NCBI RefSeq assembly: GCF_003610555.1
Contig: NZ_RAPQ01000009.1
Span: 1 to 64,000 of the forward strand
Reading direction: 5' to 3'
DNA length: 64,000 bases
DNA from: Marinifilum flexuosum
Lineage (GTDB): Bacteria; Bacteroidota; Bacteroidia; Bacteroidales; Marinifilaceae
Below are positions 265-63,447 of the stretch, one piece after another. The notes beneath the pieces were generated by a model. It saw only the letters and a list, made by a program, of their open reading frames with translations, made no database searches and was not told the DNA's origin. How positions within the stretch are numbered: the stretch's first letter is position 1; every line of letters starts with the position of its first letter. The translations under genes and the position numbers were made by a program.

Positions 265-700
265 ATGCTCCCATTAAAAGCTGAACTTTTAATGTTATTT
301 CCTGAGCTTTCAACATTAAATCCTGTTCTTTTAACATTAATACTTGTGTTTTCAATGTTAAAAGCTGTGCCGGCAACATTACTAGCTGTGGTTTCAATAT
401 TGTAAGCTGAGTGGGCAACATTGCCAGCTGAAGTTTCAACATTAAAAGTTCTTCTTTCAACGCAAAAGGCTGTCTTTTCAATCAAAAAACATGTCCTGCA
501 GGCATGGAAAGACAACAAAAAACATTGGAAGATAAGCTTTCAACATTGAAACCTCTGCTTTTAATATTGAAAGCTGAGGTTTTTAAGTTGCACACTCTCT
601 TCCGTACGTTAAAACATCAACTTTCAACTTTGTTATGTCAGCTTTCAACGTTAAATCTTCATGTTTTTACGTTAAATCTTCAACTTTCAACGCGAATCAT
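265..700. repeat. Degenerate 21-bp tandem array, about 20 units (array 1)
   Basis: Successive 21-base units share the core TTTCAAcATTgAAA followed by a CTG-containing tail. The core is itself an imperfect dyad: TTTCAA, two bases, TTGAAA. Units diverge strongly but stay in 21-base register, apart from one 20-base step near 493-513. Because 21 is divisible by 3, open frames appear on both strands: minus 234-518 and plus 504-704. Their heptad-like peptides are best read as by-products of the repeat, since the frame and apparent coding strand change within one continuous array. 21 bp equals two turns of B-DNA, so each dyad would lie on the same helix face. Confidence 0.85.
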
Positions 701-704
701 TTGA

Positions 705-952
705 CATTTACCCTGCATTTTTCTCTTATCTTAATTAGAATTTCACAATAAACTTATTAATCCACCACTTCACAAAACCCTCACCACTCCTACATCACAG
801 TTATAATTGCAACCCCAGAGACATATAAACATTCACACAATCACTATTTAAATTTATTATAAATACCAATTAAATAATATGATTAGCATTTCACCAAGCG
901 CATTTTTGTTAAATTTAATTGTTCCAAAAATTAATTTTTAAATTCAAATAAG
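705..952. other. AT-rich spacer without recognisable gene
   Basis: Between array 1 and the next gene I see only AT-rich sequence. It presumably carries the promoter of the 118-residue gene at 953. I cannot fix a -33/-7 pair with confidence. Confidence 0.5.
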
Positions 953-1309
953 ATGGCACAAATCAAAATCAAAGGCAATGCTAATTATTTAGCTGGTTTG
1001 TTCGCTGACATTAAACGAAAAAATGATGCGGATGGCGAAGCTAGCTTATTAAATTCTGTAATCGACATAGCCGCAATTGAAGGAAAGGTTAACAACATGA
1101 TCGATTATCAGGAAAAAGCAAATGATGCAAATCGATTAAAAGAAGAGTTAAACGAGCAAAAAGCGAAAATGGCTAAAGAAATCATTAATGATATCAAGCA
1201 AATTCGTGATTTGTTGAAAGCTCATTTCCCAAACGACACAAAAAAACTTGGTGCATGGGGCTTTACTATCGATGAAGTAAGCAAGAAAAAAGTGGAAGAA
1301 ACGGTTTAG
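953..1309 (+). CDS. Small conserved-looking coiled-coil protein, function unknown
   Basis: The 118-residue protein starts at ATG 953 and has no signal peptide or membrane segment. Residues about 40-95 are rich in Lys, Glu, Ala, Asn and Gln with heptad-like spacing, which predicts a helical or coiled-coil body. The N-terminal motif IKIKGNANYLAGLFADIK is basic and the C-terminus carries a KKK patch. I do not recognise the family. The gene stands alone, preceded by an AT-rich spacer and closed by a very strong hairpin at 1330-1365, so it is probably monocistronic. A cytosolic structural or regulatory role is only a guess. Confidence 0.75.
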   Translation: MAQIKIKGNANYLAGLFADIKRKNDADGEASLLNSVIDIAAIEGKVNNMIDYQEKANDANRLKEELNEQKAKMAKEIINDIKQIRDLLKAHFPNDTKKLGAWGFTIDEVSKKKVEETV

Positions 1310-1329
1310 TAATAAGCAATTCCACACAA

Positions 1330-1370
1330 CAAAGGGATGGTAGAAAACAATCTACCATCCCTTTGTTATA
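1330..1370. terminator. Bidirectional terminator, 15-bp perfect stem
   Basis: The arms at 1330-1344 and 1351-1365 pair perfectly over 15 bp around a 6-base loop. The site lies between two convergent genes (plus 953-1309 and minus 1391-2131) and probably ends both transcripts. Confidence 0.85.
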
Positions 1371-1390
1371 TAAAAAAGTATTGAAGCTTT

Positions 1391-2131
1391 TTATTTTATC
1401 CCATTGGCACTAACCGCAGCCCCAATAATTCCGGCTCCATTTTGAAACTGTGCAAGCAATACGGGCACTTCCACATCAATTTCGCTTTCGAACTTATCTA
1501 ATTTCTTGCTGATTCCTCCTCCAATGATAAAGTAATCGGGGGCACAGATTACATTCACATGATGAAGAAACTCATTGAATCTTTTTCCCCAGGCGGAAAA
1601 ACTCAAGTCTTGCTTTTTTCGAACCGAATCGGCAGCATATTTTTCAATTTTCTTGCCATTCTTGTATTTCAATTGGCCCAATTCAAAATTGGGTAACAAT
1701 TGTCCATTATAGAAAACTCCCGACCCGATTCCTGTGCCTATGGTTATCATTACCACCAGGCCTGACTTATCTTTCCCTACTCCATATTTCATTTCTGCCA
1801 AACCAGCCGCATCTGCATCATTCACAACAGTAACATCCAATCCGGTTTTATCACTGAAAAGTTGATCCACCTGAACACCTAACCAAGACTTATCCAAATT
1901 ACCATGTGCCATGGCCTTTCCATGAGATATAATGGTAGGAAATCCACAGCCTACAGGTCCTTGCCAATTGAAATGATCAACAATTTCCTTTATCACATTT
2001 GCAACGGCTTCCGGCGTAGATGGCTGAGGGGTTGGAATGCGAAATCTTTCCTCCAACTGCTTTCCCGTTTCTACATTAACCGGAGCTCCCTTAATTCCCG
2101 ACCCTCCAATATCAATTCCAAGTATTTCCAT
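1391..2131 (-). CDS. ppgK: Polyphosphate glucokinase (ROK family)
   Basis: The protein is 246 residues from ATG 2131. A longer in-frame start at 2173 would add 14 residues that do not fit the family, whose N-terminus begins just before the phosphate-1 loop. The sequence opens with [16 protein letters not shown], the acidic phosphate-1 motif of ROK sugar kinases. VVNDADAAG follows in the middle, then the phosphate-2 motif TIGTGIGSG. Near the C-terminus [10 protein letters not shown] supplies the adenosine-side glycine motif. Length and motif order match polyphosphate--glucose phosphotransferases, which phosphorylate glucose with polyphosphate and sometimes ATP. The gene is alone and faces a strong terminator. 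Polyphosphate rather than ATP preference is inferred from overall similarity. Confidence 0.88.
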
Positions 2132-2312
2132 AAATTCTAATTGTGGATTATATTTAATGAGTAAAAAATACAAAATTTCTATCGAATTAAATCACTTAAA
2201 AAAATCACAACACATCAATTTTAATCGCGAAAAGCTTGTAAATAGCGTAACATCATTCACAGTTTAACGGTATAATGAAATTGAATCAATCATTTTAACT
2301 TATCTTCCCCAT

Positions 2313-5036
2313 ATGAGTAAAAAAAGCATTAATTCCATACTTAAAAGATCTACCTTAATTATAATATCCACCATATTATTCAGTTTCATCTCTATTATTA
2401 TAGTTACTGAGTATTACCTATTTCAAAAAAATTACGAAGATGAAAAACAATTGATCGAAGATGAAAAAAAGCTGTTTCTTAAAAGTGCAGTCAAAAATGT
2501 TAAGGCATACTTGGATCATGAGGAAACCTCCTCGGAGAATAAAATGAAACTCAAACTGCAAAACGCAGTGAACAATGCTATTAACCAAGCTAATAGCATC
2601 TACACCCAGAACAAGGGAAGAAAAACCAATACAGAAATAAAAGCTTTAATCAAAAGTGCTCTGAGCGGAATACGACATTTTGACAACAGGGGCTATATTT
2701 ATATCATTGATTTACAAGGCAACTTAATAATGTATCCTTTTTGCACATCGGCTGAAGGATCTAATATATTGGGCGTCGAATCCCCCTCCGGCGAAAGTAT
2801 CATTTCAGAACAAATCAAAGCTATTAAAAACAAAGAAGAAACTTTTCATACCTATCTTTGGCACAAACCTTGGTTAAAAGACAGCATTCTTTATCCGAAA
2901 ACTTCGTTTGTTAAAAGGTTTAAGCAATTCGATTGGCTTATTGGTTGTGGCGAGTACATCGACGATCACAATATAGCCACTAAGGAACATGCAATTAATT
3001 ATCTAAAAAGCTCCTATTCGCCCAAAGATTGGAATTTATTTATTAATCATTACGATGGTACTTCTATTATTATTAATTCAGATAAATATAAGGCTGGCGT
3101 AAATATTAAGGATATTTCCAGCGATAATGGTTTAAAAATATTTAAGGAGGAATTGAAAATTGCTCAATCGGGTAATGCTGATTACTTATATTACAATTGG
3201 CCCATTAACGAAACCGAATTTACAGCAAAATTGGCATGTATTGATGGGTTTGAAAAATGGCAATGGATGATTGGAGCATCTTCGAGCTTAAAACAATTTA
3301 ACGATATAGAGCTCCAACGAATGCAATCATTCTATCAAATGTCCTGGCTGAGAATCATATTACTCATTATCCTCTCAATTCCTTTAATGTTTATAATATT
3401 AGGTCAATTCAGAAGAACCACAGGCAAATTTAAATCTGAGTTAAGCATGCTCTTCAATCAAATAGAATCTGCAGTATTTAAAGACAAGAAAATTACAAAC
3501 ACTGAATTCCAAACAAAAGAATTTCATCAACTTTCTGACAATATCAACAAACTATTAAATCAGCATTTTAAAAACATAAATGCTCTCAAGGAAAGTGAAG
3601 AAAAATTTCGAATCTTAGTTGAGTATGCTCCATTAACAATTTTAGGACTTGACAATAATGGAACCATTCAAATTTGGAACAAGCAATGTGAATCCTTTTT
3701 CGATTTAAGCAAAAAGGAGGTAATGAATCAAAAAGTGCCAATTGATAAAGTATTTACAGGAGACCAAAAAGAAAGAGTTCAAAATAAAATACTTGAAAAT
3801 GATCCTGAATTTAAGCTTTTTCCAATAAATCTTAAAAATGGCAAACTTGCCTACCAATACTGGGCATCTTTTAGAGTATCTGAAGATCTATTGATTTGGG
3901 TGGGAAGTGATGTCACAGAATTAAAAAACACTGAGAAAGAATTAAAAAAGAGTAGAAATTTTTTAGATACATTATTAGAGAGTATACCATCACCTATATT
4001 TTATAAAAATACGGATGGAATATATTTAGGAGGCAATAGGGCATTCTTTAATTTAATTGAGATGGACCCCGAAGAAGTAATTGGTAAAGGAGTTTTTGAT
4101 TTATACACCGAAGATTTAGCTAATGTTTACCATGAAAAAAATTTAGAAGTATTTAAGGGCAATTATCAACAATATGATCTTGAATACCATAAAGAAGGAC
4201 AGAATTTAAGAAATTTTACCTGCTACAACGCTCTATTTAAAAATCAAGATGAGCAAGTTGAAGGTTTAATTGGTGTATTGCTCGACATTACCGATAGAAT
4301 AAAATTTGAAACTGAATTGCAAAACAAACAAGAGGAACTTAAAGCTCTAAATGCCACTAAAGATAAGTTCTTTTCAATCATTGCTCACGACTTAATAAAC
4401 CCTTTTAACGTAATGCTTAATTCTGGTGAAATGTTAGCTGAGAGCGTTAATGAGAACGATATGCAAGGCGTTCAAGAAATGATTGAATTGCTTAATCCGG
4501 CAATAAAAAATGCTTACGACCTTTTATTAAACCTACTCGAGTGGTCAAGAGCACAAACCGGCACCATAAAGTTTCTCCCACAAAAGACAAATATTTGTGA
4601 TGATTTGCAATCCGCAATCAAACTTATGAGTGGCATGGCCAAGGCAAAAAATATTAATTTAATTTTTGAAAAAACGGAAAACCCAGAGGTATGTTTAGAT
4701 GTTAACATGCTACAAACCATTACCCGAAACCTAATCTCCAATGCCATTAAATTTACACCAGAAGGCGGACAAATTAAGGTTTACACAAATTCATACACCG
4801 ATTATTTACAGCTTTGTATCAGCGATAATGGCATAGGAATGGACAATGCCACCAAGGATAATTTATTTAAAATAGATAAGAGTACTTCTAAAAAAGGTAC
4901 AAATGATGAACCCGGTACTGGCTTAGGTTTATTACTGGTTAGTGATTTTGTAAAAAAACATGGTGGTAAAATAACAGTAATTAGTGAATTGGGAAAAGGC
5001 ACTGATGTTAGCGTTTGGTTTCCTACAAAACAATAG
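2313..5036 (+). CDS. Membrane sensor histidine kinase (Cache, two PAS, HisKA, HATPase)
   Basis: The 907-residue inner-membrane sensor starts at ATG 2313. A transmembrane helix at about 13-35 and another at about 345-365 flank a periplasmic Cache-type ligand domain (RGYIYIIDLQGNLIMYP near 130). Two PAS domains follow, about 430-540 and 550-665, each preceded by short coiled-coil linkers. The HisKA H-box is FFSIIAHDLINPF with the likely phosphoacceptor His692. The ATPase domain shows the N box NLISNAIKF, DNGIGMD, and GTGLGLLL. There is no receiver domain and no response regulator next door, so it is an orphan kinase. Cache domains often sense small organic acids or amino acids; the ligand here is unknown. 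Confidence 0.92.
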   Translation: MSKKSINSILKRSTLIIISTILFSFISIIIVTEYYLFQKNYEDEKQLIEDEKKLFLKSAVKNVKAYLDHEETSSENKMKLKLQNAVNNAINQANSIYTQNKGRKTNTEIKALIKSALSGIRHFDNRGYIYIIDLQGNLIMYPFCTSAEGSNILGVESPSGESIISEQIKAIKNKEETFHTYLWHKPWLKDSILYPKTSFVKRFKQFDWLIGCGEYIDDHNIATKEHAINYLKSSYSPKDWNLFINHYDGTSIIINSDKYKAGVNIKDISSDNGLKIFKEELKIAQSGNADYLYYNWPINETEFTAKLACIDGFEKWQWMIGASSSLKQFNDIELQRMQSFYQMSWLRIILLIILSIPLMFIILGQFRRTTGKFKSELSMLFNQIESAVFKDKKITNTEFQTKEFHQLSDNINKLLNQHFKNINALKESEEKFRILVEYAPLTILGLDNNGTIQIWNKQCESFFDLSKKEVMNQKVPIDKVFTGDQKERVQNKILENDPEFKLFPINLKNGKLAYQYWASFRVSEDLLIWVGSDVTELKNTEKELKKSRNFLDTLLESIPSPIFYKNTDGIYLGGNRAFFNLIEMDPEEVIGKGVFDLYTEDLANVYHEKNLEVFKGNYQQYDLEYHKEGQNLRNFTCYNALFKNQDEQVEGLIGVLLDITDRIKFETELQNKQEELKALNATKDKFFSIIAHDLINPFNVMLNSGEMLAESVNENDMQGVQEMIELLNPAIKNAYDLLLNLLEWSRAQTGTIKFLPQKTNICDDLQSAIKLMSGMAKAKNINLIFEKTENPEVCLDVNMLQTITRNLISNAIKFTPEGGQIKVYTNSYTDYLQLCISDNGIGMDNATKDNLFKIDKSTSKKGTNDEPGTGLGLLLVSDFVKKHGGKITVISELGKGTDVSVWFPTKQ

Positions 5037-5241
5037 ATTCAAAATTGATTATAAGAATACTTTGGTGCAAACTCTTTAAATGTATTGTTTACAGGTAGAA
5101 AAAAAATGAAAAAAGTCCATAAATTGATAATTATAAATCCACACGAAAATGTTTACTTTGATCTGGCAATTATCATCTGATTACATATAGAAAATTTAAC
5201 AGGTGCAATAAATCGTAAACACTTGATTGGGAAAAATAATT
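5037..5241. other. Spacer upstream of MscS gene
   Basis: This 205-base AT-rich stretch holds no open frame of note. It is presumably the promoter region of the mechanosensitive channel gene. I cannot assign specific elements. Confidence 0.4.
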
Positions 5242-6096
5242 ATGAATAAAGTAATTGAGTTTTTAGAATACGAAATTTTTAAAATTGGAAGCTTTTCCTT
5301 CACATTTGGAAAAATAACCAGTACTCTCATTACCATATTAATCACCATTTTTTTACTCTGGCTAATTAAAAAAGCAATATTCCGTAAAAAATCATTTCTA
5401 AGTATTGATAAAGGAAACCTATACTCCTTGTTTCAAATTATCAAATACCTGGTATGGATCATTTCCTCATTGATCATTCTGGAGACATTGGGATTTAAAC
5501 TAAATGTACTTTTGGCTGGATCGGCTGCCTTACTTGTTGGGGTTGGATTAGGCTTACAGAATACGTTCAATAATTTTGTTTCAGGGATCATATTGCTATT
5601 CGAAAGGTCGATAAAAGTTGGAGATATTTTAGAAATAGATGGAGATGTGGTTAAAATGGAAAGAATTGGCTTAAGAACTTCATCGGCAAAAAATCGCGAC
5701 GACATCATCATTATCATACCCAATTCACTAATCACAAGCAACAAGGTGATCAATTGGAGTCATCAATCAGACAAAACAAGATTTAAAATTTGTGTTGGTG
5801 TTGCTTATGGAAGCGATGTAGAATTGGTAACCAAAGTACTAAAAGAAAGCGCTCTGGAAAGCAGGGATATTACTGATAAAGACTCTATTCTTGTAAGATT
5901 TGTGAATTTTGGAAGCTCTTCTCTCGATTTCGAATTGTTGTTTTTCAGTAGGAATATTTTCAGGATTGAAAATCTTAAATCAGACATCAGAATGTTGATA
6001 AATAAAAAATTTATCGAGAATAACATTTCCATTCCATTTCCTCAAATGGATGTTCATTTTAAATCTGATGCAACTGGACATTTTAGCAAAAAGTAA
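5242..6096 (+). CDS. MscS-family small-conductance mechanosensitive channel
   Basis: I place the start at ATG 5242, giving 284 residues; an upstream TTG at 5227 is possible but adds nothing. Three transmembrane helices lie at about 15-40, 60-80 and 85-120. The third carries the pore motif GVGLGLQNTFNNFVSGIILL, typical of MscS TM3. The soluble beta domain follows, with SIKVGDILEIDGDVV and the conserved IPNSLI. A C-terminal alpha/beta domain ends near PQMDVHF. Such channels release solutes on hypo-osmotic shock. The protein is close to the compact E. coli MscS length (286) with no extra domains. It is monocistronic in appearance. Confidence 0.92.
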   Translation: MNKVIEFLEYEIFKIGSFSFTFGKITSTLITILITIFLLWLIKKAIFRKKSFLSIDKGNLYSLFQIIKYLVWIISSLIILETLGFKLNVLLAGSAALLVGVGLGLQNTFNNFVSGIILLFERSIKVGDILEIDGDVVKMERIGLRTSSAKNRDDIIIIIPNSLITSNKVINWSHQSDKTRFKICVGVAYGSDVELVTKVLKESALESRDITDKDSILVRFVNFGSSSLDFELLFFSRNIFRIENLKSDIRMLINKKFIENNISIPFPQMDVHFKSDATGHFSKK

Positions 6097-6444
6097 AAAC
6101 TCATCCGAATTAATTATCTGTAATTCTTAAAACAGGTACTGTTTTTAACAAACCGAACTGGCCTTATGTCTTGTTTCATATGACTAATGTCAGTTCTTTA
6201 GTGTTTTCCTTGATTTTACATCGCGAAAATTCCCATCATTATCGAAATTGTGAAAATTTCCTCCTTTTTTACCATCCTCTTCCCTACTTTTATTGTCCTA
6301 ATTGCATTATTGCATAAAAACAACAACCAATCATGAAACAAAGATGAATTTTAGCATACTAAATTTTTCATAGCAGTATATAAAAATTCATCAAAAGTTC
6401 CTCCCGATAACGATCGGGATGACACAACCAAAAATTACAACCAA
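6097..6444. other. Spacer with a CCCGAT palindrome
   Basis: There is no convincing gene. The notable item is TCCCGAT (6402-6408) paired with ATCGGGA (6413-6419) across AACG, 25 bases upstream of the S9 peptidase start. The same palindrome with another loop recurs at 24068-24085, so it is a dispersed repeat rather than a private operator. Confidence 0.6.
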
Positions 6445-8952: not shown

Positions 8953-8973
8953 TTCATTTGTCAGATAATATTC

Positions 8974-24243: not shown

Positions 24244-25161
24244 TTAGCCAGGATGAGCAACGGGTAATGCTTGCAATTCGATTTTGAGGTTTAGGTGTTC
24301 GTTGCTGTATCGTTTTATGATTTGTTGGCTAGTGTGGTAGCGGATATTTTCTATTTTAAGTGTGAATTCGCCTTCGGGGAAGTTCATGAAATTGAAGTTG
24401 CCGTTTTTGGTAATTTTTGCTTGCAAATTGTTCTCCAAAACGCTAACGGTGCCATATGAAATGGGCTGTCCAGTGTCTTTGTTTACAATAGATCCGCGTA
24501 TACTGTAATGTCGTGAGTTGGATTTCTTCAGCTTACGCGCTGAATAATACTTGAAGTACAATTCGGGATGGGTTTCCTGGTAAGAATTGATGGTCCAGTC
24601 GAGTTTGTCCTTTAAAAATTGATTAATGCCAGCAACCAAATCGTTAAATTCCTTTCTGTTTCTTTCGTTCTGATCTTTTATTTTTTTCCTATTAAGAATA
24701 TTGCCTTCTATATCCAGAAGGATTTGGCGATAGGCCTGCAAAAACTCTTCGCTTGTGCCATATTGTTCCAATTGACTTTGGTATTTCTCGCACAAATTAT
24801 GCAGTAAATAGCCCGAGTTGATTCTCCTTAGCTGTATTCCCCTTTTGATGTTTCGAAGATGTATGTTCAGATTGATTAGCAGTTCAAAATCATTGGTATC
24901 CGCCACCAAACGATTGATGGCAATCTCCAATACTTGTGCATTCTTTACAAGCTGCTTAAATAACTTGTTATTTTCAGCTGTAATCCACTCTGTAGGCTGA
25001 TTCAGCTTTACGAACATTTTCTCTAGCCTTTTGCAATTCTGTAAAAAACTTTGAACTTGCGATTTGGCTGAAGGATCGGATTCAAAAGGATTCAAGTTCT
25101 GGTTTAAAATGTTCTGAATAGAAATGTAGCTTTCGATTTTGGCTCTGATTCTTTTGTGCAT
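24244..25161 (-). CDS. Helical protein with C-terminal carboxypeptidase-regulatory-like domain
   Basis: The 305-residue protein has no signal peptide by eye. Residues 1-200 are largely alpha-helical and rich in Lys, Asn, Gln and Leu. Residues about 215-295 form a CarboxypepD_reg-like beta-sandwich: IRGSIVNKDTGQPISYGTVSV, then GNFNFMNFPEGEFTLKIEN. Such domains are usually on secreted or TonB-linked proteins, so a cytosolic-looking N-terminus is odd; the true localisation is unclear. It is single, divergent from the array-2 region. Function unknown. Confidence 0.78.
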   Translation of the reverse strand: MHKRIRAKIESYISIQNILNQNLNPFESDPSAKSQVQSFLQNCKRLEKMFVKLNQPTEWITAENNKLFKQLVKNAQVLEIAINRLVADTNDFELLINLNIHLRNIKRGIQLRRINSGYLLHNLCEKYQSQLEQYGTSEEFLQAYRQILLDIEGNILNRKKIKDQNERNRKEFNDLVAGINQFLKDKLDWTINSYQETHPELYFKYYSARKLKKSNSRHYSIRGSIVNKDTGQPISYGTVSVLENNLQAKITKNGNFNFMNFPEGEFTLKIENIRYHTSQQIIKRYSNEHLNLKIELQALPVAHPG

Positions 25162-25311
25162 AAGTGTTTGTTTTAATGATTTCTTAAGTTAGTAGTTGTA
25201 TTATTTAATTTAATGGACCAATCATTAAATGTAGTCCTATGGTATACAATGTTTGCTTTCTTGTTTCTTGTGTTCTTTTATAAAACGATAATATTGCTGT
25301 ACCAAACATGC

Positions 25312-25773
25312 ATGTCGTTCTGTAAATCAGCTATGTCTCTTGGCATATCATGCGTGTCTCTTCATTTATCTGGCATGTCTTTGCATAAAACAGCAATGTC
25401 TTTGTGCTTATCATGTATGTCGTTCTACAAATCATCTATGTCTTTTGGCAAATCATGCGTGTCGTTTCATAAATCAGGCATGTCTTTGCGTAAAACAGCA
25501 ATGTCTTTGTGCTTATCATGTATGTCGTTCTACAAATCATCTATGTCTTTTGGCAAATCATGCGTGTCGTTTCATAAATCAGGCATGTCTTTGCGTAAAA
25601 CAGCAATGTCTTTGTGCTTATCATGTATGTCGTTCTACAAATCATCTATGTCTTTTGGCAAATCATGCGTGTCGTTTCATAAATCAGGCATGTCTTTACG
25701 TAAAACAGCAATGTCTTTGTATAAAACAGCTATGTCATTGGATAAAACATGTGTGTTGTTTAACGAATCGGCA
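25312..25773. repeat. 21-bp tandem array with 105-bp super-repeat (array 2)
   Basis: About 22 units of 21 bp follow the pattern ATGTCTTTGNNTAAAACAGCA. At a second level, five units form a 105-base block repeated at 25396-25500, 25501-25605 and 25606-25710 with very few differences. A diverged four-unit copy precedes it and three diverged units follow. An open frame runs through (25213-25791, repeats like MSLRKTA), preceded by a hydrophobic stretch, and a second frame is open too. I favour a non-coding reading, because two other loci show the same pitch without consistent frames. A small Ser/Cys-rich heptad-repeat membrane protein cannot be excluded. Confidence 0.88.
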
Positions 25774-25847: not shown

Positions 25848-25949
25848 TTAGGCAATGGTGCTAAGGAGTTCATACAATTGTTCGTCTGTGATTTCGGGTA
25901 GTACAATGTTTTCTACCGGATATTCGAATAAAGTTTGTTGGTCTGACAT
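25848..25949 (-). CDS. Possible 33-residue small protein
   Basis: ATG at 25949 opens a 33-codon frame ending at TAA 25848-25850. The peptide starts MSDQQTLFEYPVENIVLPEI and ends TDEQLYELLSTIA. It is acidic, has normal composition and lacks the low-complexity look of chance frames in this spacer. The C-terminal TDEQLYELLS segment resembles helical leader-type sequences of ribosomally made peptides, but no core or modifying gene is adjacent. A small regulatory or structural protein is equally possible. Confidence 0.4.
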   Translation of the reverse strand: MSDQQTLFEYPVENIVLPEITDEQLYELLSTIA

Positions 25950-54284: not shown

Positions 54285-54309
54285 AAGTTGATGATATTTT
54301 ACAATACCC

Positions 54310-54401
54310 TGTATAAGTCGATAACATGCCCCTGTAAAGGTAGTTCCCTTGACCATGTATAGGTAATTACATTGTCTATGTAAAGGTAGTTGCTTTATAT
54401 A
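54310..54401. repeat. Four tandem 23-bp repeats
   Basis: Units start at 54310, 54333, 54356 and 54379, each resembling TGTAAAGGTAGTTNCNTTG. They diverge at several positions but keep exact 23-base spacing. They lie between the S41 gene and the hydrolase gene, which converge. The pitch differs from the 21-bp arrays elsewhere in the window. Confidence 0.75.
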
Positions 54402-54974: not shown

Positions 54975-55098
54975 CTTTTAATATCTTTTCTACTATAACG
55001 AATCAAGGGTTAAAAACACCTAAAGTTGAGAAAAAACTTTTGCATTACCAGTTCCTTTAACAAGTCAAAGGGTGACTCATAATATTTTTGAGAATTAG

Positions 55099-55752: not shown

Positions 55753-56558
55753 GTTTCCAAAAGCTGATAAAAATGATTTACAGGACCGTGTCCTTCTCCT
55801 ATCTCGTAATCTGCTCCAGCAACAATTGCATTATTAATGTAATCCTTGGCCTTTTTTGCAGATTGCTGAAGATCATTTCCCTGCGATAGGAAAGCAGCAA
55901 ATGCCGATGACATGGTGCATCCTGTGCCATGGGTGTTTTTCGTTGTTAATCGATTCGATTTCATCTCTACGCTCTCCTGCTTTTCAAAATCGTAAAACAC
56001 ATCAATCAACTCATCTTCATTCAAATGCCCAGCTTTTAGCAATACCGAAACCTTATAGTGATTTGCCAATTCAGCAGCACACTCAAACACATCTTCCTGT
56101 GTTGGGATTTGTCTGCCCAACAGAATTTCTGCTTCAGGAATATTAGGAGTAATTACCTTCACCATAGGTATCAACACCTCTTTTAGTGTTGTAATGGCCT
56201 CGTCCAACAACAACTTATCTCCTGAGGTTGCCACCATTACTGGGTCGAGAACCACATTTTTAATTTGATATTTATTCAAAGCATCAGCCACCACATGAAT
56301 GGTTTCCGATGAATGCAACATTCCAATTTTAATGGCATCAGCACCAATATCACTCAAAACCGCATCTATTTGCTCTGCTAATATCTGATTGGGAACAGCA
56401 TGCACATTACTTACCCCTATTGTATTTTGTACCGTGATTGCAGTGATAGCCGTAGCGGCATATGAGCCACATGCCGAAATGGCTTTAATATCAGCCTGTA
56501 TTCCTGCTCCTCCGCCAGAATCGCTTCCGGCAATACTTAAAACTTTATTGTATTTCAT
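55740..56558 (-). CDS. thiD: Hydroxymethylpyrimidine/phosphomethylpyrimidine kinase
   Basis: I choose ATG 56558 (272 residues). The in-frame extension to 56672 would run through the tenA stop region and adds 38 unlikely residues. The start MKYNKVLSIAGSDSGGGAG is the ThiD N-terminal motif. Further blocks are DPVMVATSGDKLL near 112 and the anion-hole GTGCTMSSAFAAFL near 213. The enzyme phosphorylates HMP and HMP-P to HMP-PP, the pyrimidine half of thiamine. It lies 13 bases after tenA copy 2 and overlaps tenA copy 1. Confidence 0.94.
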   Translation of the reverse strand: MKYNKVLSIAGSDSGGGAGIQADIKAISACGSYAATAITAITVQNTIGVSNVHAVPNQILAEQIDAVLSDIGADAIKIGMLHSSETIHVVADALNKYQIKNVVLDPVMVATSGDKLLLDEAITTLKEVLIPMVKVITPNIPEAEILLGRQIPTQEDVFECAAELANHYKVSVLLKAGHLNEDELIDVFYDFEKQESVEMKSNRLTTKNTHGTGCTMSSAFAAFLSQGNDLQQSAKKAKDYINNAIVAGADYEIGEGHGPVNHFYQLLETCKQ

Positions 56559-56571
56559 TAAATTTACTTTT

Positions 56572-57219
56572 TTAAACTGGCCACGTTTCCTTTTTGTAAG
56601 CACTATCCCAAAACATCCACTCCATTTTTGATGCTTTAACAAAGGCATTCCACATCTGCTTTCTTTTCTCAATGGAAGTATTCACTGCCAGATGATCACA
56701 AATTCTTATGGCTTTTTCTACCGCTAGTGCAAACTCTTCGCCTCCATAGGTATCAATCCAATTTTGGTATTGATTGTCTTCTTGATCCTGATGCTTCAGA
56801 ATATAATCACCCACTTTTTTGTAGATCCAAAAACAAGGCAAGACAGCCGCTGCAGCTTCTTCAACCGAGGCGGTAGCCAATTGTTTATGAATAAAAGAGG
56901 TGTATAGAAGACAAGAAGGCGACACGCTGCCATTCTGCTTTTGATCTTTCAAATAAAATTGATGCAAGGCTTGTTCAACCGCAACTGTATCACTGGCAAA
57001 GTTTAAAAAGTCTTTTCTTTGCTCCGAATCTTCCAGTTTAACAGCGATTCCTGCCAACACCTTGCCAAACTCAGCCAAATAAAGAGAATCCTGAGTCAAA
57101 TAAAATTTGAATTTTTCTCTGTCCAGTTCGCCACTCATCAGTTCAATAATAAAAGGATGTTCGAGTATTTGCGTATAAATTCCTTCTATTCTTCTCCAAG
57201 CTTCGTCAGACCATTTCAT
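56572..57219 (-). CDS. tenA: TenA-family protein (copy 2)
   Basis: The 215-residue protein is a second TenA, only about 30% similar to copy 1. It keeps the Cys motif AAAVLPCFWIYKKV and the Glu/Asp region DTYGGEEFALAVEKA. WSDEAWRRIEGIYTQILEHPF at the N-terminus is typical of the family. Its ATG overlaps the thiE stop (ATGA). Divergence from copy 1 suggests they handle different pyrimidine analogues, such as formylaminopyrimidine versus thiamine. Confidence 0.9.
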   Translation of the reverse strand: MKWSDEAWRRIEGIYTQILEHPFIIELMSGELDREKFKFYLTQDSLYLAEFGKVLAGIAVKLEDSEQRKDFLNFASDTVAVEQALHQFYLKDQKQNGSVSPSCLLYTSFIHKQLATASVEEAAAAVLPCFWIYKKVGDYILKHQDQEDNQYQNWIDTYGGEEFALAVEKAIRICDHLAVNTSIEKRKQMWNAFVKASKMEWMFWDSAYKKETWPV

Positions 57220-57869
57220 GAATCAATTGATTTAAGTGATAAACTCGTATTAACGATTTCCTTCAATTCTTTTGCTGCATTGCAAGGATCTTCAGCACAA
57301 ACAATCGCCGAAACAACTGCAATTCCATCTGCTCCAGCCTTAATGATATCTGCTGTATTTGTCGAATTGATTCCTCCAATAGCCACAGCCGGATGCTTTG
57401 AAAAACTCATAATTTCCTTCACACCATCCAATTCCAAAGGCTTGGCAATATCATTCTTGGTTTGAGTAGAAAATACCGGAGATAAACCAATGTAATCAAC
57501 ATCAAGTTGGTTTGCTTGCCTTGCTTGTTCAATATTCTCAACCGAAAGTCCGATAATTTTATTTGGCCCTAATATTTTACGAGCCACATGATATGGCAAA
57601 TCGCTCTGACCAATGTGCAAACCATCAGCATCTACCGCCAAAGCAATATCTAATCGATCATTAATAATTAAAGGCACTTTATATTTTTCAAGCACTTTCT
57701 TGACTGTGTCAGCCAACTGGTAAAAATCTTTTGAGTTTGCCTCCTTCTCTCGGATTTGCACCATGCTAACACCTCCTTTTACTGCCTCTTCAACAATATC
57801 TTCAAGCGCTTTACCATTGGCCAATTCCTTATCTGTTACCAGATATAAATTTAAATCTTCTCTGTTCAT
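57216..57869 (-). CDS. thiE: Thiamine-phosphate synthase
   Basis: The start is ATG 57869, fixed by a 4-base ATGA overlap with the thiM stop (the longer start at 57881 would overlap further). The 217-residue enzyme joins HMP-PP and thiazole phosphate to give thiamine phosphate. Motifs are VSMVQIREKEANSKDF near 36, INDRLDIALAVDADGLHIGQSDL near 75, and PAVAIGGINSTN near 165. It is coupled to thiM before and tenA after by ATGA overlaps. Confidence 0.95.
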   Translation of the reverse strand: MNREDLNLYLVTDKELANGKALEDIVEEAVKGGVSMVQIREKEANSKDFYQLADTVKKVLEKYKVPLIINDRLDIALAVDADGLHIGQSDLPYHVARKILGPNKIIGLSVENIEQARQANQLDVDYIGLSPVFSTQTKNDIAKPLELDGVKEIMSFSKHPAVAIGGINSTNTADIIKAGADGIAVVSAIVCAEDPCNAAKELKEIVNTSLSLKSIDS

Positions 57870-58663
57870 TCTACCGTACAAAATGCTTGTTCAATTTCAA
57901 CTTCGCTCAGCTTATACAAACAATCCAGAAAATGCATTTGCATACTTCCAGGTCCATTTGCTTTTGCACTTGCCAGTTCTCCGGTAATTCCCATTACTGT
58001 CATTCCATTAACGGCTGCTTCAAACAAATTATCGTTGGTAGCAACAAAAGCTCCCAATAAAGCTGTTGCCGTACATCCCATTCCAGTTACCTTTTCCATC
58101 ATCGAATTTCCAAAAGCAACCCTTTCAACTCGATTCCCATCGGTGATATAGTCTACCTCTCCACTGATTACAACAATACACTCATGCAATTGAGCCAGAT
58201 ATTTGGCAGAATCAAGAGCTGATTTTGTAGATACAACACTATCAACACCCTTGGTTTTCATTTCCTGATTCACCAAGGCCATGATTTCAGATGCATTGCC
58301 TCTAATAATTTCCGGATTGCAATTGTTGATTATTCTCGTTGCTATTTCGTTTCGGTAAGCTGTAGCTCCAGCGCCTACAGGATCGAAGACAATTGGAATT
58401 TTTCTTTCATTGGCCCTTAAGCCTGCAATAATCATCGACTCAACCCATTCTTTTGATAGGGTTCCCATATTTAACACCAAAGCAGAAGCAATTCCAACCA
58501 TGTCCTTTACCTCTTCCTGGGCATGTGCCATAACCGGCGATGCCCCAATGGCAAGAAGTGCATTGGCAGTATTATTCATCACCACATAATTGGTGATATT
58601 GTGTACTAAGGGAGAATTTTTCCTGATTGCTTCCAGGTTTTCTGTAATCATTTTTGGGTTCAT
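57866..58663 (-). CDS. thiM: Hydroxyethylthiazole kinase
   Basis: The start is ATG 58663, which overlaps the methyltransferase stop by 4 bases (ATGA). The 265-residue enzyme phosphorylates 5-(2-hydroxyethyl)-4-methylthiazole, the salvage route to the thiazole half. Motifs include SPLVHNITNYVVMN near 22, PIVFDPVGAGATAYR near 92, and MEKVTGMGCTATALLGAF near 190. The catalytic Cys is in GMGCT. It is the second gene of the TPP operon and points to salvage rather than de novo thiazole synthesis. Confidence 0.95.
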   Translation of the reverse strand: MNPKMITENLEAIRKNSPLVHNITNYVVMNNTANALLAIGASPVMAHAQEEVKDMVGIASALVLNMGTLSKEWVESMIIAGLRANERKIPIVFDPVGAGATAYRNEIATRIINNCNPEIIRGNASEIMALVNQEMKTKGVDSVVSTKSALDSAKYLAQLHECIVVISGEVDYITDGNRVERVAFGNSMMEKVTGMGCTATALLGAFVATNDNLFEAAVNGMTVMGITGELASAKANGPGSMQMHFLDCLYKLSEVEIEQAFCTVE

Positions 58664-59370
58664 AGCATCTGGTTTTTCACAGCACAAATCGCTACATAAT
58701 CACCACAATCATATCCTTCAATTGGTTCTTCGGCCACCTGATTTGAATACAGAGGATGCTTGGTTAGTGTTTGTGCAAATTGAAGATTCTTAAAGTTAGC
58801 ATTTTTTATGATATCGATTTTCTCTGAAGTGGTTCTCCACTTGGCAACTTTAACCAATTCTATTGGATATGGATCTCTTGGATGAACTCCTCCTAATAAT
58901 TCATGATCCCAGGTGCCCACTGATTTGGCCAAGTTGTAAAGAACACCATAAGAACTCTCTTTGGGAACATCAATCATTACAATTTTACCACCAGGACGCA
59001 ATGCTTCATAAGCTTTCTCAACAGCCTTCTGTAAATCGGTAATATAACTTGGAGTACCATTAAACAGAATTGTATCGAACTTTTCTTTACCCAATTCCAT
59101 TTCTTCGGCCGTGGTAATTTCAACATTTAAACCTCGTTCTTTGGCAATAGCTGCCATTCCTTCTGAAGGTTCAATACCATTCTTAATGCTAATACCGAAT
59201 TCTTTGTCCAAAATGGTTTCGAACAAACCACTGCCACATCCTACCGAGAATACTTCTCCTGCATTTTCTAAGAAATGTGCCACCAATTTTACTTCCGAAT
59301 AAAGAACATTTTCATTTTCCAAAAACCATGCATCATAATCCGATGCATATTGATTAAATTTTGATCCCAT
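58660..59370 (-). CDS. Class I SAM-dependent methyltransferase in the thiamine operon
   Basis: The 236-residue enzyme has the Rossmann methyltransferase fold: VFSVGCGSGLFETIL near 37 (motif I), EPSEGMAAIAKE near 62, and RPGGKIVMIDVPKES near 125. It is the first gene behind the TPP riboswitch and its stop overlaps the thiM start. I know of no standard thiamine step that needs a methyltransferase in this position. It could methylate a thiamine precursor, detoxify an analogue or act on an unrelated substrate co-regulated with thiamine. Membership of the operon is clear; function is not. Confidence 0.9.
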   Translation of the reverse strand: MGSKFNQYASDYDAWFLENENVLYSEVKLVAHFLENAGEVFSVGCGSGLFETILDKEFGISIKNGIEPSEGMAAIAKERGLNVEITTAEEMELGKEKFDTILFNGTPSYITDLQKAVEKAYEALRPGGKIVMIDVPKESSYGVLYNLAKSVGTWDHELLGGVHPRDPYPIELVKVAKWRTTSEKIDIIKNANFKNLQFAQTLTKHPLYSNQVAEEPIEGYDCGDYVAICAVKNQML

Positions 59371-59410
59371 TTTATGCTTTTGTTTTAAGTATTTTGCACA
59401 ACAGCAGGAA

Positions 59411-59445
59411 ACAAAAAAACCGCTCCACGAAAGTGAAACGGTTGT
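59411..59445 (-). terminator. Riboswitch-linked terminator
   Basis: On the minus strand AACCG...CAC pairs with GTG...CGGTT around a GAAA-like tetraloop region, followed by at least seven T residues. It sits between the TPP aptamer and the methyltransferase start, so it is the likely OFF-state terminator. Confidence 0.85.
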
Positions 59446-59477
59446 ATCTATATCTTAAAAATTATATCAGACAAATC

Positions 59478-59556
59478 GTTTCCCTACGCTACTATTATGC
59501 AGATCAGGTAAAAGGGTAAAATCTCAGCCTGAATACATGATTCAAGCACCCCTAAC
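59478..59556 (-). ncRNA. TPP riboswitch (THI element)
   Basis: Read on the minus strand, the sequence has the diagnostic blocks in order. These are AGGGGTGC, then GGCTGAGA near 59521-59528, ACCC, ACCTGATCTG, then ATAATAGTAGCGTAGGGAA at the end. Only the variable P3 stem differs from the consensus. It binds thiamine pyrophosphate and, with the downstream terminator, turns off the thi operon when TPP is plentiful. Confidence 0.96.
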
Positions 59557-59563
59557 GTTTCGA

Positions 59564-59571
59564 CAAAGGTA
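59564..59571 (-). promoter_or_regulatory. Candidate -7 element for the thi operon
   Basis: On the minus strand TACCTTTG matches TAnnTTTG, the Bacteroidota -7 consensus, and lies about 8 bases upstream of the aptamer 5' end. It sits immediately beyond the stop codon of the 59575 gene. A clear -33 TTG is not visible. Confidence 0.5.
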
Positions 59572-59574
59572 AAA

Positions 59575-59940
59575 TTATTTCATGAAATCTCTTGTATTTG
59601 TATAATAACCCGGAATAAAATATTTGGCTGGATCCTGGGCTATTCGTTCGTGATATCGAACACTTTCATAAAATGCTTCTGTAAGATGTAATGCAACTCC
59701 TAAAACTTCCTGTCCAACAGTAAACGATTCTTTCTGGTAACTTAAATTACCCAAATTTGGCCTCTTAAATTCCATATGATCCTCTAATACGATCACGTCC
59801 TTTTTTACATCAAAATTAAAAGGAGCTTTCTGTTCCTTGTATTCTTGCCATTTGTTCAGGTATTCATCTTCATTTGTTGATTGCGCAGATATGGACAAAG
59901 CAATCAACAAAAGAACTAATAGTGCACTTATTGACTTCAT
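59575..59940 (-). CDS. Small exported protein of unknown function
   Basis: The 121-residue protein has a signal peptide (ISALLVLLLIALSISAQ). The mature part is polar with a short beta-alpha pattern; GQEVLGVALHLTEAFYES near 77-94 suggests a helix. No catalytic motif is seen. It lies upstream of the thi operon on the same strand but ends before its promoter. The operon is expressed separately. Function unknown. Confidence 0.72.
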   Translation of the reverse strand: MKSISALLVLLLIALSISAQSTNEDEYLNKWQEYKEQKAPFNFDVKKDVIVLEDHMEFKRPNLGNLSYQKESFTVGQEVLGVALHLTEAFYESVRYHERIAQDPAKYFIPGYYTNTRDFMK

Positions 59941-60003
59941 AACATTGTGATTTGATTATGATTTAAATTTAAGCTTATCATTACTAAAAAACAAGTGAAT
60001 GGC

Positions 60004-60354
60004 TCAATGAGTCCAATCCAGGAGAATTGCCTTAGCACCAACTTGTTTCTCAATGGCCTTTTTCATTGTTTCGAAATGCGGACAAGGATAGCCAATCGGA
60101 TTTCCTCTCTTGATACATGAAGCCATGGCTATAATTTCTGCTCCTCTTTCTATCATCATTTTTGCTCTTGTTACAGCTTTTTTTCCCGGGCAGCCTCCAC
60201 AAGTAACAAAGCCTGTAATTTCACAAGGTCCATATTCCTTAAATGCTAATTTTCCGGAGCTAGCCACCTTAAAATCTGCACTACCCGGACACATGTCCTC
60301 AGTTTGCTGGCAACGTATAATTCCTACTTTCTTCATCAACTTATAATTACCCAT
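60004..60354 (-). CDS. CGGC-domain protein
   Basis: The 116-residue protein carries the family signature CGGCPGKKA near 52. Additional Cys occur in IRCQQTEDMCPGSADF (15-30) and in MASCIKRGNPIGYPCPHF near 78-95. The multiple Cys suggest metal or Fe-S binding. ATG 60354 and ATG 60336 are both possible starts; the shorter begins MKKVGIIRC, as in most members. The biochemical role of the family is unknown to me. It is divergent from the helicase at 60475. Confidence 0.88.
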   Translation of the reverse strand: MGNYKLMKKVGIIRCQQTEDMCPGSADFKVASSGKLAFKEYGPCEITGFVTCGGCPGKKAVTRAKMMIERGAEIIAMASCIKRGNPIGYPCPHFETMKKAIEKQVGAKAILLDWTH

Positions 60355-60474
60355 AAATTAAAACACAATAATAAAATATTGTTCTCTCATCATCAAACGA
60401 TTTCTATTGAAATCAATTCTCCAATATAAAAATCCTTTGTTTTAGATTAACTTTGGAGCTTCACTCATTAGATT

Positions 60475-63183
60475 ATGCATACAATACAAGAAATATTGGC
60501 AACATACGCCAATCGAATTCTATCAAAAAAAATATTGCCAGCCCGTAAAGCCAGCTTCTCATCCATTCCTGATGAAATGAATCAAGAATTGAAAGATTGC
60601 ATACAGCAAATGGGCTACAAACAATTGTATTCTCACCAGGCTGAAATGTACAAGAAGGCCATGCAAGGGAAATCAGTAGTAATTACTACCGGAACAGCCA
60701 GTGGAAAATCTTTATCCTTTTACCTTCCGGTGATTGAGAGAATACTTGAGAATCCTAGCCGAAGAGCTCTTTTTATCTATCCTACCAAAGCTTTAACCAA
60801 AGATCAACTCCGCAATATTGTTGAGTTTGTAGAGTATTTTGGCAAACATCGCATACAAGCAGGCATTTACGATGGAGACACTCCTGCCAACGAACGATCC
60901 AGAATTCGTGAGGAAGCAAATATCATTCTTACCAATCCGGATATGATTAACGCCACTTTTCTTCCCAACCACAATCGATATGGTTTCCCGCATTTGTTTG
61001 CCAATCTCGATTTTATTGTAATTGATGAGCTACATGCCTATCGTGGCGCCTTTGGTTCACATGTTTCAAATGTAATGCGCCGTTTGCTTCGAATTTGCAA
61101 TTATCATGGCAACACACCCAAGTTTTTATGCAGTTCAGCTACCATTGCCAATCCGGCTGAACTGGCTGAGAACATCTGTCACCAGCCTTTCGAATTAATT
61201 GAAAAAGATGGATCGCCAGCACCTGAGAAAGAAATTCTTTTTTGGCAACCCGAATTCATTAAAGAGGCACAAAGAAAAAGATCGGTAACGGAAGAGTTGA
61301 AAGGTCTACTACCCGATTTAATAGAAAATTGCACTCGTGTAATCACCTTTTGCATGTCGCGCAGAGAAACCGAGGTGGTAACCAAAGAGTGCCGTGATAT
61401 TTTGGCACAAGATCCTTTAAAACTAGGTCCGGATTTCTCGGATAAAATATCGGCTTACCGTGGTGGATATACACCTTTGGAAAGAGCCAAGATTGAAAAG
61501 GATTTGGTAGAAGGCAATATTTACGGTGTTGTATCAACTTCAGCATTGGAGTTGGGAATCGATATTGGTGCTTTGGATATGGTAGTAATGGGTGGATTTC
61601 CGGGAACTCGAGCTAGTTTTTGGCAGCAATTGGGACGAGCAGGTAGGAAGGGCAACAAAGCCTATGCGGTTCTGATGCTCAAAGAAAAACCTATGGATCA
61701 GTATGTAGGAATGAATCCGAATTGGTTGTTGCAATCGGAATCGGAAAATGCTGTAATCGACAAGAACAATTTATACATACAGTTGGCACACATTCGCGCT
61801 GCTTCGGCCGAATTGCCTCTTAGTATCGATGACATTGCTACATTCCCTGATTTGGGAGAGATTATCCCTTTATTACAAAAAGAGGGTGAAATTAGCGAGC
61901 ACAATGCGCAGTATCAGTGGAGCGGACAGGTATCTCCTGCTCACGAAATCAGCTTGAGAAACATTACCAGCGATACCATTAAAGTGGTTGATCGCGAAAA
62001 GGAAAAGACCATCACTACCGTTGATTTGGTCCAGGCGAAAAAGGAATTTTATCCGGGAGCCATTTATCTTCACGATAGCATACAATACAAGAGTCTTGAT
62101 TTGGATTTGGAAAGCAAAACTGCCTGGGTAAAAGAGGTGGATTCGAACTATTATACCGAACCTCACAAACCGGGAACCATAGACATTTTAATGGAACATG
62201 ACCAAAACGAGAAGCACCGAATTTATTCCTGCTTTGGCGATGTTCGGGTAAGTGTTTTGGTATCGGGCTATAAAATGATTCAGTTCAACACGCATCAAAA
62301 CTTGGGTTACGAGGGGCTTTCACAGATTTTACAAACCCAAATGGAAACCGAAGCTTGTTGGATTCAAATTCCCGATAATGTAGTAAAAGTATTTGTTGCA
62401 ACAGGAAAAGCACCAAGTTTGGAGCCTCAAAAACCTTTGGAAGAGGACAAAAGCATTCCTCGATTCGATTATACCGAAGGATTGGTGCATTGCATAAATG
62501 CTGCAGCAGCCATGCGAGTTATGGCTACCCATTCTGATTTGGGTGGTACGATTTTTGGTTTTGCACACCCTAAATCGCACAAACACAAGCATGCCATTAT
62601 TTTGTACGATGAGTATCCTGGCGGCTTGGGATTTTCTGAAAAAGCATTCGAATATATCGATGAAATCATCAAAAGTGCTGGCCAACTAGTTAAGAACTGT
62701 GCTTGCCAGGATGGATGCCCGGCTTGTGTGGGAGATCATAGAATTAATAAGCATTTAATTCTGTGGGCACTGCGCTCTTTTTATAAGGAAGTTGATTTAC
62801 CAAAAGACATTAAGGTTGAAGGTTTAACAAACTACACAAATGCTCCAATCCCAAAAATTGACTGGAACAATTTGAAAGAAAACTGGCAAATTGTTTTAAG
62901 TCGATTTGAAAAAGAAAATTTATTTGGTTCTCGATTCTTACAACAAAGCAGTGCATTGGAAATTAAAGGTTCTCAATTGATCCTATACTATGCTGATAGC
63001 AGCTTAAAATTGGCTCAAAAACCCGAAGTAATAGAAGGAATCAAATCCGAGTTATCGAAAGTAATTCTTTTACCGGAACATTTTGAATTGCATTTACGCC
63101 CCGACAATGGAGAAGCAAATCTAAAAAATCAGCTGAAGCTGCAACGCATGATGAGCAATGGTAAAGGGTATTTGAACAATTAA
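60475..63183 (+). CDS. DEAD/DEAH-box helicase with DUF1998 (MrfA-like)
   Basis: The 902-residue superfamily 2 helicase has Walker A TTGTASGKSLSF near 76, DELH box FIVIDELHAY near 185, and motif VI QLGRAGRKG near 385. The helicase C domain ends near 440. A long C-terminal region includes the DUF1998 domain with the zinc-binding cysteines CACQDGCPACVGD near 744-755. MrfA in Bacillus is a 3'-5' DNA helicase for repair of mitomycin-type damage; orthology is inferred. It is followed by array 3 and a UvrD-like helicase in the same orientation. Confidence 0.9.
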   Translation: MHTIQEILATYANRILSKKILPARKASFSSIPDEMNQELKDCIQQMGYKQLYSHQAEMYKKAMQGKSVVITTGTASGKSLSFYLPVIERILENPSRRALFIYPTKALTKDQLRNIVEFVEYFGKHRIQAGIYDGDTPANERSRIREEANIILTNPDMINATFLPNHNRYGFPHLFANLDFIVIDELHAYRGAFGSHVSNVMRRLLRICNYHGNTPKFLCSSATIANPAELAENICHQPFELIEKDGSPAPEKEILFWQPEFIKEAQRKRSVTEELKGLLPDLIENCTRVITFCMSRRETEVVTKECRDILAQDPLKLGPDFSDKISAYRGGYTPLERAKIEKDLVEGNIYGVVSTSALELGIDIGALDMVVMGGFPGTRASFWQQLGRAGRKGNKAYAVLMLKEKPMDQYVGMNPNWLLQSESENAVIDKNNLYIQLAHIRAASAELPLSIDDIATFPDLGEIIPLLQKEGEISEHNAQYQWSGQVSPAHEISLRNITSDTIKVVDREKEKTITTVDLVQAKKEFYPGAIYLHDSIQYKSLDLDLESKTAWVKEVDSNYYTEPHKPGTIDILMEHDQNEKHRIYSCFGDVRVSVLVSGYKMIQFNTHQNLGYEGLSQILQTQMETEACWIQIPDNVVKVFVATGKAPSLEPQKPLEEDKSIPRFDYTEGLVHCINAAAAMRVMATHSDLGGTIFGFAHPKSHKHKHAIILYDEYPGGLGFSEKAFEYIDEIIKSAGQLVKNCACQDGCPACVGDHRINKHLILWALRSFYKEVDLPKDIKVEGLTNYTNAPIPKIDWNNLKENWQIVLSRFEKENLFGSRFLQQSSALEIKGSQLILYYADSSLKLAQKPEVIEGIKSELSKVILLPEHFELHLRPDNGEANLKNQLKLQRMMSNGKGYLNN

Positions 63184-63198
63184 AGAAGTAATTCGAGT

Positions 63199-63447
63199 AA
63201 AAGTTTTGATGATTTTATTAAAGCTTTGGTAATTTTATCAAAGCTTTCAAGGTTTTACTAAAGCTTTGATGATTTTATCAAAACCTTTCAAGAATTTACT
63301 AAAGCTTTGGTGATTTTATCAAAACCTTTCAAGAATTTATTAAAGCTTTGGTGATTTTACCAAAACCTTTCAAGAATTTACTAAAGCTTTGATGATTTTA
63401 TCAAAGCTTTCAAGAATTTACTAAAGCTTTGGTGATTTTATCAAAGA
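63199..63447. repeat. Tandem array of about 20.3-bp pitch with nested hairpins (array 3)
   Basis: Units start with AAAG or AAAC at 63220, 63240, 63260, 63281, 63301, 63322, 63342, 63363, 63383, 63403 and 63423, so the pitch alternates between 20 and 21. Two unit types alternate, a GCTTTGgTGATTTTaTC type and a CTTTCAAGAATTTACT type. GCTTTGAT and ATCAAAGC form 8-bp hairpins in the first type. No open frame runs through. It lies between two helicase genes. The unit sequence is unrelated to arrays 1 and 2. Confidence 0.85.

Follow-up and report, generated by a model that had tools for sequence, protein, structure and literature searches.

Several described systems pair a gene with repeats of its own. 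In REP/RAYT elements, a gene has cognate palindromic repeats nearby and further copies are dispersed in intergenic DNA. Plasmid iterons and partition centromeres (iteron/Rep, parC/ParR, StbA) are private tandem sites about two turns apart beside the gene of a putative binder, and ToxI of Type III toxin-antitoxin loci is a private tandem repeat beside the gene of a candidate reader protein. The HU/IHF superfamily includes the HU-Ig proteins of Bacteroidota (PF14848, PF18291 'HU-HIG'), which are expanded paralogs with a DNA-binding domain. Here we describe short tandem arrays in the genome of Marinifilum flexuosum (G000; 5,169,742 bases, 16 contigs) and the genes that adjoin them. The starting point was three arrays in the window, i.e., the whole stretch of 64,000 nucleotides analyzed (G000:C2:1-64000). 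The original prediction had noted that their units are unrelated while the pitch is close to two DNA turns. Its interpretation as a whole is partly supported; the linked genes, which it did not see, are the key to the arrays. With a probability of about 0.6, the arrays are clusters of cognate binding sites of adjoining putative DNA-binding proteins, or dispersed copies of such clusters (satellites).

Arrays adjoining DUF6261 and HU-Ig genes

A genome-wide period scan had been proposed as a check. We scanned a sample of 1,248,002 bases (24% of the genome) at lags 5-129 with identity >0.60 over 100 bp. The sample consists of the window, two 12-kb stretches picked for holding relatives of the third window array, and 58 regularly spaced 20-kb stretches, mostly on the largest contig. 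Pitch classes were assigned by reading the scan output, with 62, 104 and 105 counted as multiples of the unit; on this count 30 of the 43 repeat segments fall at a pitch of 20-23 or 41-46 bp; they represent 29 arrays, one of which was split between two segments. Their units are unrelated, with compositions from AT-rich to GC-rich. The scan thus confirmed a pitch class common to unrelated units and did not find a single 21-bp pitch: the pitch depends on the neighboring gene family (20-21, 21/42, 22/44, 22-24/45-46 and 41/42 bp) and is not one universal two-turn spacing. The idea that a two-turn pitch keeps all sites on one helix face has to be loosened accordingly, as 23 bp is not strictly one face at 10.5 bp per turn. 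Both neighboring genes are in view for 26 of the 29 arrays, which lie in 15 co-directional, 8 convergent and 3 divergent gaps. Among these, the 23-bp arrays are all in convergent gaps (4/4, vs 107/891 array-free gaps).

The first clue for DUF6261 came from an all-against-all comparison of flanking proteins, in which relatives adjoined four unrelated 41-bp arrays. For each of the 12 DUF6261 genes of this genome that score over the Pfam cut-off, a 41/42-bp array is found in the 800 bp upstream; an array was called when lag 41 or 42 was the best of lags 12-59, and the identities were 0.61-0.96 over 70 bp. The array upstream of L250 is short and AT-rich. A thirteenth gene (L072), below the cut-off, also has a 41/42-bp array. 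The control frequency is 16 of 884 genes, the DUF6261 genes of the sample included (Fisher 6e-20). DUF6261 is present in 9 of 80 genomes of the order (this one included), with 24 matches in the eight genomes outside G000. We analyzed 12 of these 24 matches, mostly the best-scoring ones, from seven other genomes; 11 of the 12 upstream stretches carry a 41/42-bp array (identity 0.63-0.97), compared to 4 of 853 control genes in eleven groups of relatives (Fisher 3e-21). The four control arrays come from G015 (3/135) and from the named loci (1/122), the other nine groups having none; seven groups together gave 0/415. By sequence, the DUF6261 protein shows nothing convincing against the PDB. As a separate observation, a 41-bp array in Mangrovibacterium marinum (L007:20660-20881) has no evident adjoining DUF6261 gene by eye; it is perhaps a satellite.

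The HU-Ig family was recognized from two 23-bp arrays, each found directly after an HU-Ig gene. The genome has nine HU-Ig genes and all nine proteins score over the cut-offs of both PF14848 and PF14734, which places them in the HU/IHF superfamily. Each of the nine genes has, no more than 320 bp past its stop codon, an array of 22-24 or 45/46 bp, compared to 14 of 906 control genes, the HU-Ig genes of the sample included (Fisher 7e-16). In relatives, 26 of the 32 PF14848 matches were examined and 18 of the 26 loci have an array (same genus 15/17, G016 2/5, G011 1/3, G060 0/1). Eighteen of the loci could be scored for a 3' array (13 positive). The other eight were scanned as whole loci, the array positions being read against the gene positions, and in five of them (L221, L226, L233, L236, L237) an array of lag 22/23 lies at the gene's 3' end. 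HU-Ig gave a weak match to PDB entry 4fmr by sequence (E 0.001). The association of arrays with genes is strong for DUF6261 and HU-Ig, and each of these two well-sampled families has its typical side, 5' for DUF6261 and 3' for HU-Ig.

Private units, dyad symmetry and satellites

Within this genome no pair among the 12 DUF6261 arrays or among the 9 HU-Ig arrays matches at E 1e-4. Among 28 HU-Ig loci, array sequence is common to seven pairs, all with at least 68% protein identity, and to none of the 362 pairs below 60% protein identity. Several families without detectable mutual homology have a family-typical pitch, with a private unit for each paralog. Pairwise hhalign probabilities between the linked groups are ≤20%, which disfavors common ancestry. 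In the members scanned, DUF6261 and the other linked groups have no HU-type Pfam match, and their hhalign probability to HU-Ig is <1%. Pitch goes with the protein family, as does the side in the two large families, and each paralog has a unit of its own; arrays of binding sites for the linked proteins would be expected to look like this. As an observation in its own right, L133:4280-4500 and L091:16430-16650 have the same flanking genes in two genera and both carry 42-bp arrays, with different units by eye.

Arrays next to no recognized linked gene match linked arrays at 69-90% identity. Such satellite pairs are L131-L244 (80%), L138-L240, L177-L246, L052-L248, L065 and the L072 array, L137-L128, L134:85-L209 and L045:12161-L210 (29 bp only). 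In total, 22 of the 29 sampled arrays are gene-linked or satellites.

Self-complementarity of the units was analyzed by folding each array on its unit, with column permutation as the null. It exceeds chance over 19 arrays (Stouffer z 11.1; one of the 19 is a heptamer array), over the 12 DUF6261 arrays of this genome (11.8) and 11 others (12.8), and over 24 HU-Ig loci at lag 22-24 with four loci dropped (10.4). With a free lag the HU-Ig value is 13.8 over 28 loci; we prefer the lower figure. The mean column conservation of the units is 0.63-0.95 and it is uneven even without the near-identical units (Stouffer z 8.5 for 27 arrays; two had too few distinct units). A CRISPR array is rejected on the same measure, as it needs near-identical repeats and unique spacers and the units here are degenerate and set end to end. 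Intrinsic curvature had been put forward as a possible role. A-tract phasing is strong in array 1 of the window (z 7) and in the 41-bp arrays L052 and L065 (z 3.6-3.7), lower in L073 and L075 (z 2.3-2.6), and weak or negative in most of the remaining arrays (Stouffer 3.6 over 29); curvature is not a general feature of the arrays.

The window arrays and smaller linked groups

The arrays of the window were located by Tandem Repeats Finder (TRF) and autocorrelation. All three of the predicted arrays are found, and they have no mutual match by blastn (E 1e-4), in agreement with the claim of unrelated units. Away from the three sites, identity over 150 bp stays at or below 0.58 for all lags of 12-60 in the window; TRF finds a shorter 23-bp array (54300..54391, no strand) in the gap between convergent genes.

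Array 1 (about 265..700, no strand) consists of about 20 quasi-palindromic 21-bp units with the consensus GCTGAGCTTTCAACATTAAAA. Its autocorrelation identity is 0.57 at lag 21, compared to a mean of 0.27 over lags, and its self-complementarity is significant (p 0.0005). Kin of this array are found at C1:782k, C2:668k and C3:352k, and arrays of this type contain a 7-bp sub-period. The candidate linked gene (953..1309, + strand) starts 253 bp away, with the array upstream; it encodes 118 aa with no convincing family match. A homologue (L113:797-1129; 25%, E 6e-13) adjoins another array of the array-1 type. Heptamer (7-bp) arrays occur as well (L046:14510-14693; L142:8994-11571; L178, L180, L193), including relatives where no 20-46-bp array was seen.

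Array 2 (about 25303..25773, no strand) has 22 units of 21 bp with 0 indels, an identity of 0.66 at lag 21 and an internal five-unit higher repeat of 105 bp (95%). Its unit has two conserved blocks, about ATGTCNTT and AAAWCA, about one turn apart. Orthologous arrays are found in G002 and G003, and both blocks are kept at four loci in three genomes. The candidate linked gene (24244..25161, - strand; 305 aa) has the array 139 bp upstream and encodes a C-terminal CarbopepD_reg_2 domain; the protein gave nothing convincing against the PDB by sequence and no relative in viral contigs. L055:2868-3797 also has an array upstream (22 bp) and a weaker C-terminal match to CarbopepD_reg_2, below the cut-off; tblastn detects no similarity between the two proteins. 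Together with L166 and L167, relatives of L055 (22 and 44 bp), they make up a group with CarbopepD_reg tails and upstream arrays. A CarbopepD_reg-tailed fragment at L153 has a 44-bp array upstream, and L155 shows a weak lag-21 signal only. Inspection by eye showed a small open frame of 33 aa (window 25848-25949, - strand) between array 2 and the gene that follows, and similar DNA is found next to the orthologous arrays in G002 and G003.

Array 3 (63199..63447, no strand) is built of 41-bp doublets of 20+21 bp, with identity 0.74 at lag 41 and 0.62 at lag 20. The predicted pitches of 21 bp hold for arrays 1 and 2, and the value of about 20.3 for array 3 is corrected to a mean of 20.5 by the 20/21 alternation. 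The neighboring DEAD-box helicase gene encodes a protein 98% identical to that of Marinifilum breve JC075, whose array differs by one base (20- vs 21-bp half-unit) and substitutions. Array 3 and L039 are satellites of the L040 array, whose linked gene, in another part of the genome, encodes 175 aa.

In the 175-aa group the arrays are downstream with a pitch of 20.5-21 bp (L040, L080, L086); they are weak in L089 and L071 and not convincing in L057. In the 250-aa group (L123, L058, L046) 20-21-bp arrays are also downstream, weak in L046. L125 and L128 are weakly PQLLE-like, below the model cut-off, with 21/42-bp arrays upstream. Membership of these and the other smaller groups was assigned with less certainty than that of DUF6261 and HU-Ig.

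Of the other 13 repeat segments of the sample, six are arrays of 7/8 bp, four are coding repeats within long open frames of 483-1107 aa, and two are clusters of tRNA genes; the last is an unclassified 102-bp repeat (L123:4627-4912). The tRNA clusters (L073:1058-1585 and L126:10923-11359) are tandem sets of five tRNA-Asp and four tRNA-Asn genes. A LytTR response-regulator gene is found in L045:18455-19450 with a 21-bp array 100 bp after it; LytTR proteins bind direct repeats about 21 bp apart. A TPP riboswitch (63.5 bits) is predicted at window 59464-59563 (- strand).

Proposed binding-site clusters, alternatives and known systems

In the proposed mechanism the linked protein, probably a dimer, would cover about two helical turns per site, and the sites, often dyad-symmetric, would be packed edge to edge. 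The pitch would then equal the footprint (20-24 bp) or two alternating footprints (41-46 bp), and a footprint of about two turns would explain the common pitch without a universal helical rule. The protein may load cooperatively on its array and may bridge it with the satellites, thereby shaping the nucleoid or local expression. We infer binding, dimer footprint, bridging and function from sequence patterns. The DNA-binding protein suggested by the original prediction as reader of the arrays is a good candidate, as one linked family has an HU-type domain. Nucleoid bridging, autoregulation, partition and invader recognition are candidate roles; Burroughs et al. (2017) reportedly proposed the last of these for this HU clade.

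Several findings weigh against cognate binding-site clusters. A known DNA-binding domain is found in HU-Ig only, among the linked groups, and not every array has dyads: p<0.006 is reached by 9 of 19, and array 2 has p 0.46. Among the relatives, one DUF6261 gene of the 12 (in G060) has no 41/42-bp array, and eight of the 26 HU-Ig loci are misses (L213 in G060; L219 and L231 in G011; L218, L222 and L232 in G016; L228 and L234 in G001). Of these, the L234 gene has internal stops, and the L222 gene has an array opposite the usual side, some 400 bp away on its 5' flank (L222:1062; strong at lag 24, with 0.97 over 60 bp). Six of 11 HU-Ig pairs with >80% identity have no detectable array sequence in common, which weakens strict sequence recognition and suggests that an array can be replaced beside a conserved protein. 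The L058 array (250-aa group) shares a 44-bp match with L249, a DUF6261 array, and is thus an exception to the privacy of the units. Six of the 29 sampled arrays have neither linked gene nor partner (window 54300, L045:19265, L062, L075, L133, L134:9545), and L043 adjoins an orphan gene of no recurrent family. The 118-aa group consists of two relatives of 110-118 aa with arrays on opposite sides, array 1 being 5' of its gene and the related array 3' of the L113 paralog. Several members of the small groups were found with array-containing queries, which biases these groups toward linkage.

The dyads would also fit arrays that work as RNA, the transcript of the linked gene then carrying a series of short hairpins in its 5' or 3' untranslated region as a leader, a terminator or an RNA antitoxin-like repeat. 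The gene-linked arrays are no more than a few hundred bases away from their genes, and many units are hairpin-capable. An RNA stem should favor G-T on the sense strand. We counted stem cells in gene orientation in arrays with dyad z >1.5, the cells not being independent of one another. HU-Ig stems have 47 G-T vs 29 A-C cells (p 0.05) and single arrays lean the same way (L137 13 vs 2, L039 7 vs 1), whereas DUF6261 stems have no G-T excess (38 vs 51, p 0.20). With DUF6261 lacking the excess and HU-Ig ambiguous, DNA-level dyads are favored, and RNA hairpins in general are rejected for want of an overall G-T excess, HU-Ig being borderline. Moreover, dyads are missing from several arrays, Rfam has no family at the window's arrays, and hairpins account for neither the narrow pitch nor the satellites. 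Nor is there a convincing toxin or defense match in ten linked proteins (with PADLOC, only one weak stretch to Avs2, E 0.003). We consider an RNA role unlikely.

Also improbable is a REP/RAYT-like selfish element, in which the linked protein multiplies or moves the array, the satellites are transposed copies, and the pitch is that of the substrate. Array-bearing genes together with dispersed copies are what it predicts, and some arrays do differ in presence between relatives. At the place orthologous to array 3, L001 is the only one of eight relatives' loci with an array. The gene and 41-bp array of L043 (L043:15286-16310) are missing from the sole orthologous site found (L169 in G001), where about one unit is left, and the L073 array is not found beside the orthologous flank in G001-G003. 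Against such an element, the linked proteins scanned have no transposase, nuclease or HUH match, the satellites have diverged and none looks like a recent copy, and the HU-Ig architecture is that of DNA-binding proteins. Known phage families are not matched either, as ten linked proteins gave no PHROGs match. A plasmid or phage origin of the arrays is disfavored: array 3 has no match in plasmid or phage records and array 2 none in plasmid records, though the coverage of the clade by these collections is uncertain.

Far less probable are ordinary minisatellites that arose by replication slippage with a mutational bias near 21 bp, as the original prediction had also allowed. Growth and shrinkage are indeed mostly by whole units: the L055 array differs from its G002 ortholog by one 22-bp unit and one base in the last unit, and array 2 from its G002 ortholog by a 42-bp gap. 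A bare mutational process leaves unexplained why pitch, and mostly side, track the neighboring gene family with controls so different, and why column conservation is uneven. The 29 arrays also have about 41 mismatches per indel step, although the detection favors indel-free arrays. Degenerate protein-coding heptad repeats (21 bp being 7 codons) are the least probable: array 2 has two open frames over 476 bp, but arrays 1 and 3 and three array-2 homologues (two in G002, one in G003) have stops in all six frames, pitches of 20, 20.5, 22, 23 and 41 do not fit whole codons, and selection for peptide repeats is as unlikely as had been supposed.

Cognate binding-site clusters thus remain our preferred reading, and the findings suggest a kind of pair made up of a protein and its private DNA array. 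A curiosity of 21-bp repeats becomes a rule that ties DUF6261, a family of unknown function, and the expanded HU-Ig family to the DNA beside their own genes. The rule gives a testable function (bind own array), offers natural sets of possibly orthogonal protein-DNA pairs, and may account for a large part of the longer intergenic repeats in this genome. It hints at convergence of unrelated families on one array architecture. More tentatively, and with the odds somewhat against it, Bacteroidales chromosomes may carry several families of such pairs that discriminate self from other. Unrelated proteins (DUF6261, HU-Ig and others) would have converged on tandem sites set apart by the footprint of the reader, each paralog would have an orthogonal address and the satellites would be remote addresses, the whole serving as parallel labels for nucleoid bridging or partition without cross-talk, or as a repertoire for invader recognition. 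A literature search, with few subscription papers within reach, found no report of such arrays.

Each of the known systems shares part of this picture. As in REP/RAYT, repeats occur both beside the gene and dispersed (the satellites), with reading by the protein putative; no Y1/HUH transposase match is seen in the linked proteins scanned, and here there are many unrelated private units per genome at a fixed pitch in long arrays. With iterons and partition centromeres the arrays share the spacing of about two turns and the adjacent gene, again of a putative binder. They differ in having many families per genome and satellites; the linked proteins scanned have no Rep or Par match, and the arrays sit on contigs of 0.1-2.4 Mb, probably chromosomal. 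Compared to ToxI, the arrays are 5' in some families and 3' in others, their units are degenerate and the DUF6261 arrays have DNA-like symmetry; no ToxN/TenpN/CptN endoribonuclease is matched by Pfam or PADLOC among the linked proteins scanned. Compared to the known HU-Ig proteins of the HU/IHF superfamily (Burroughs et al. 2017, cited in PMC5906684), the apparent difference of those described here is the private 22-24-bp array beside each gene.

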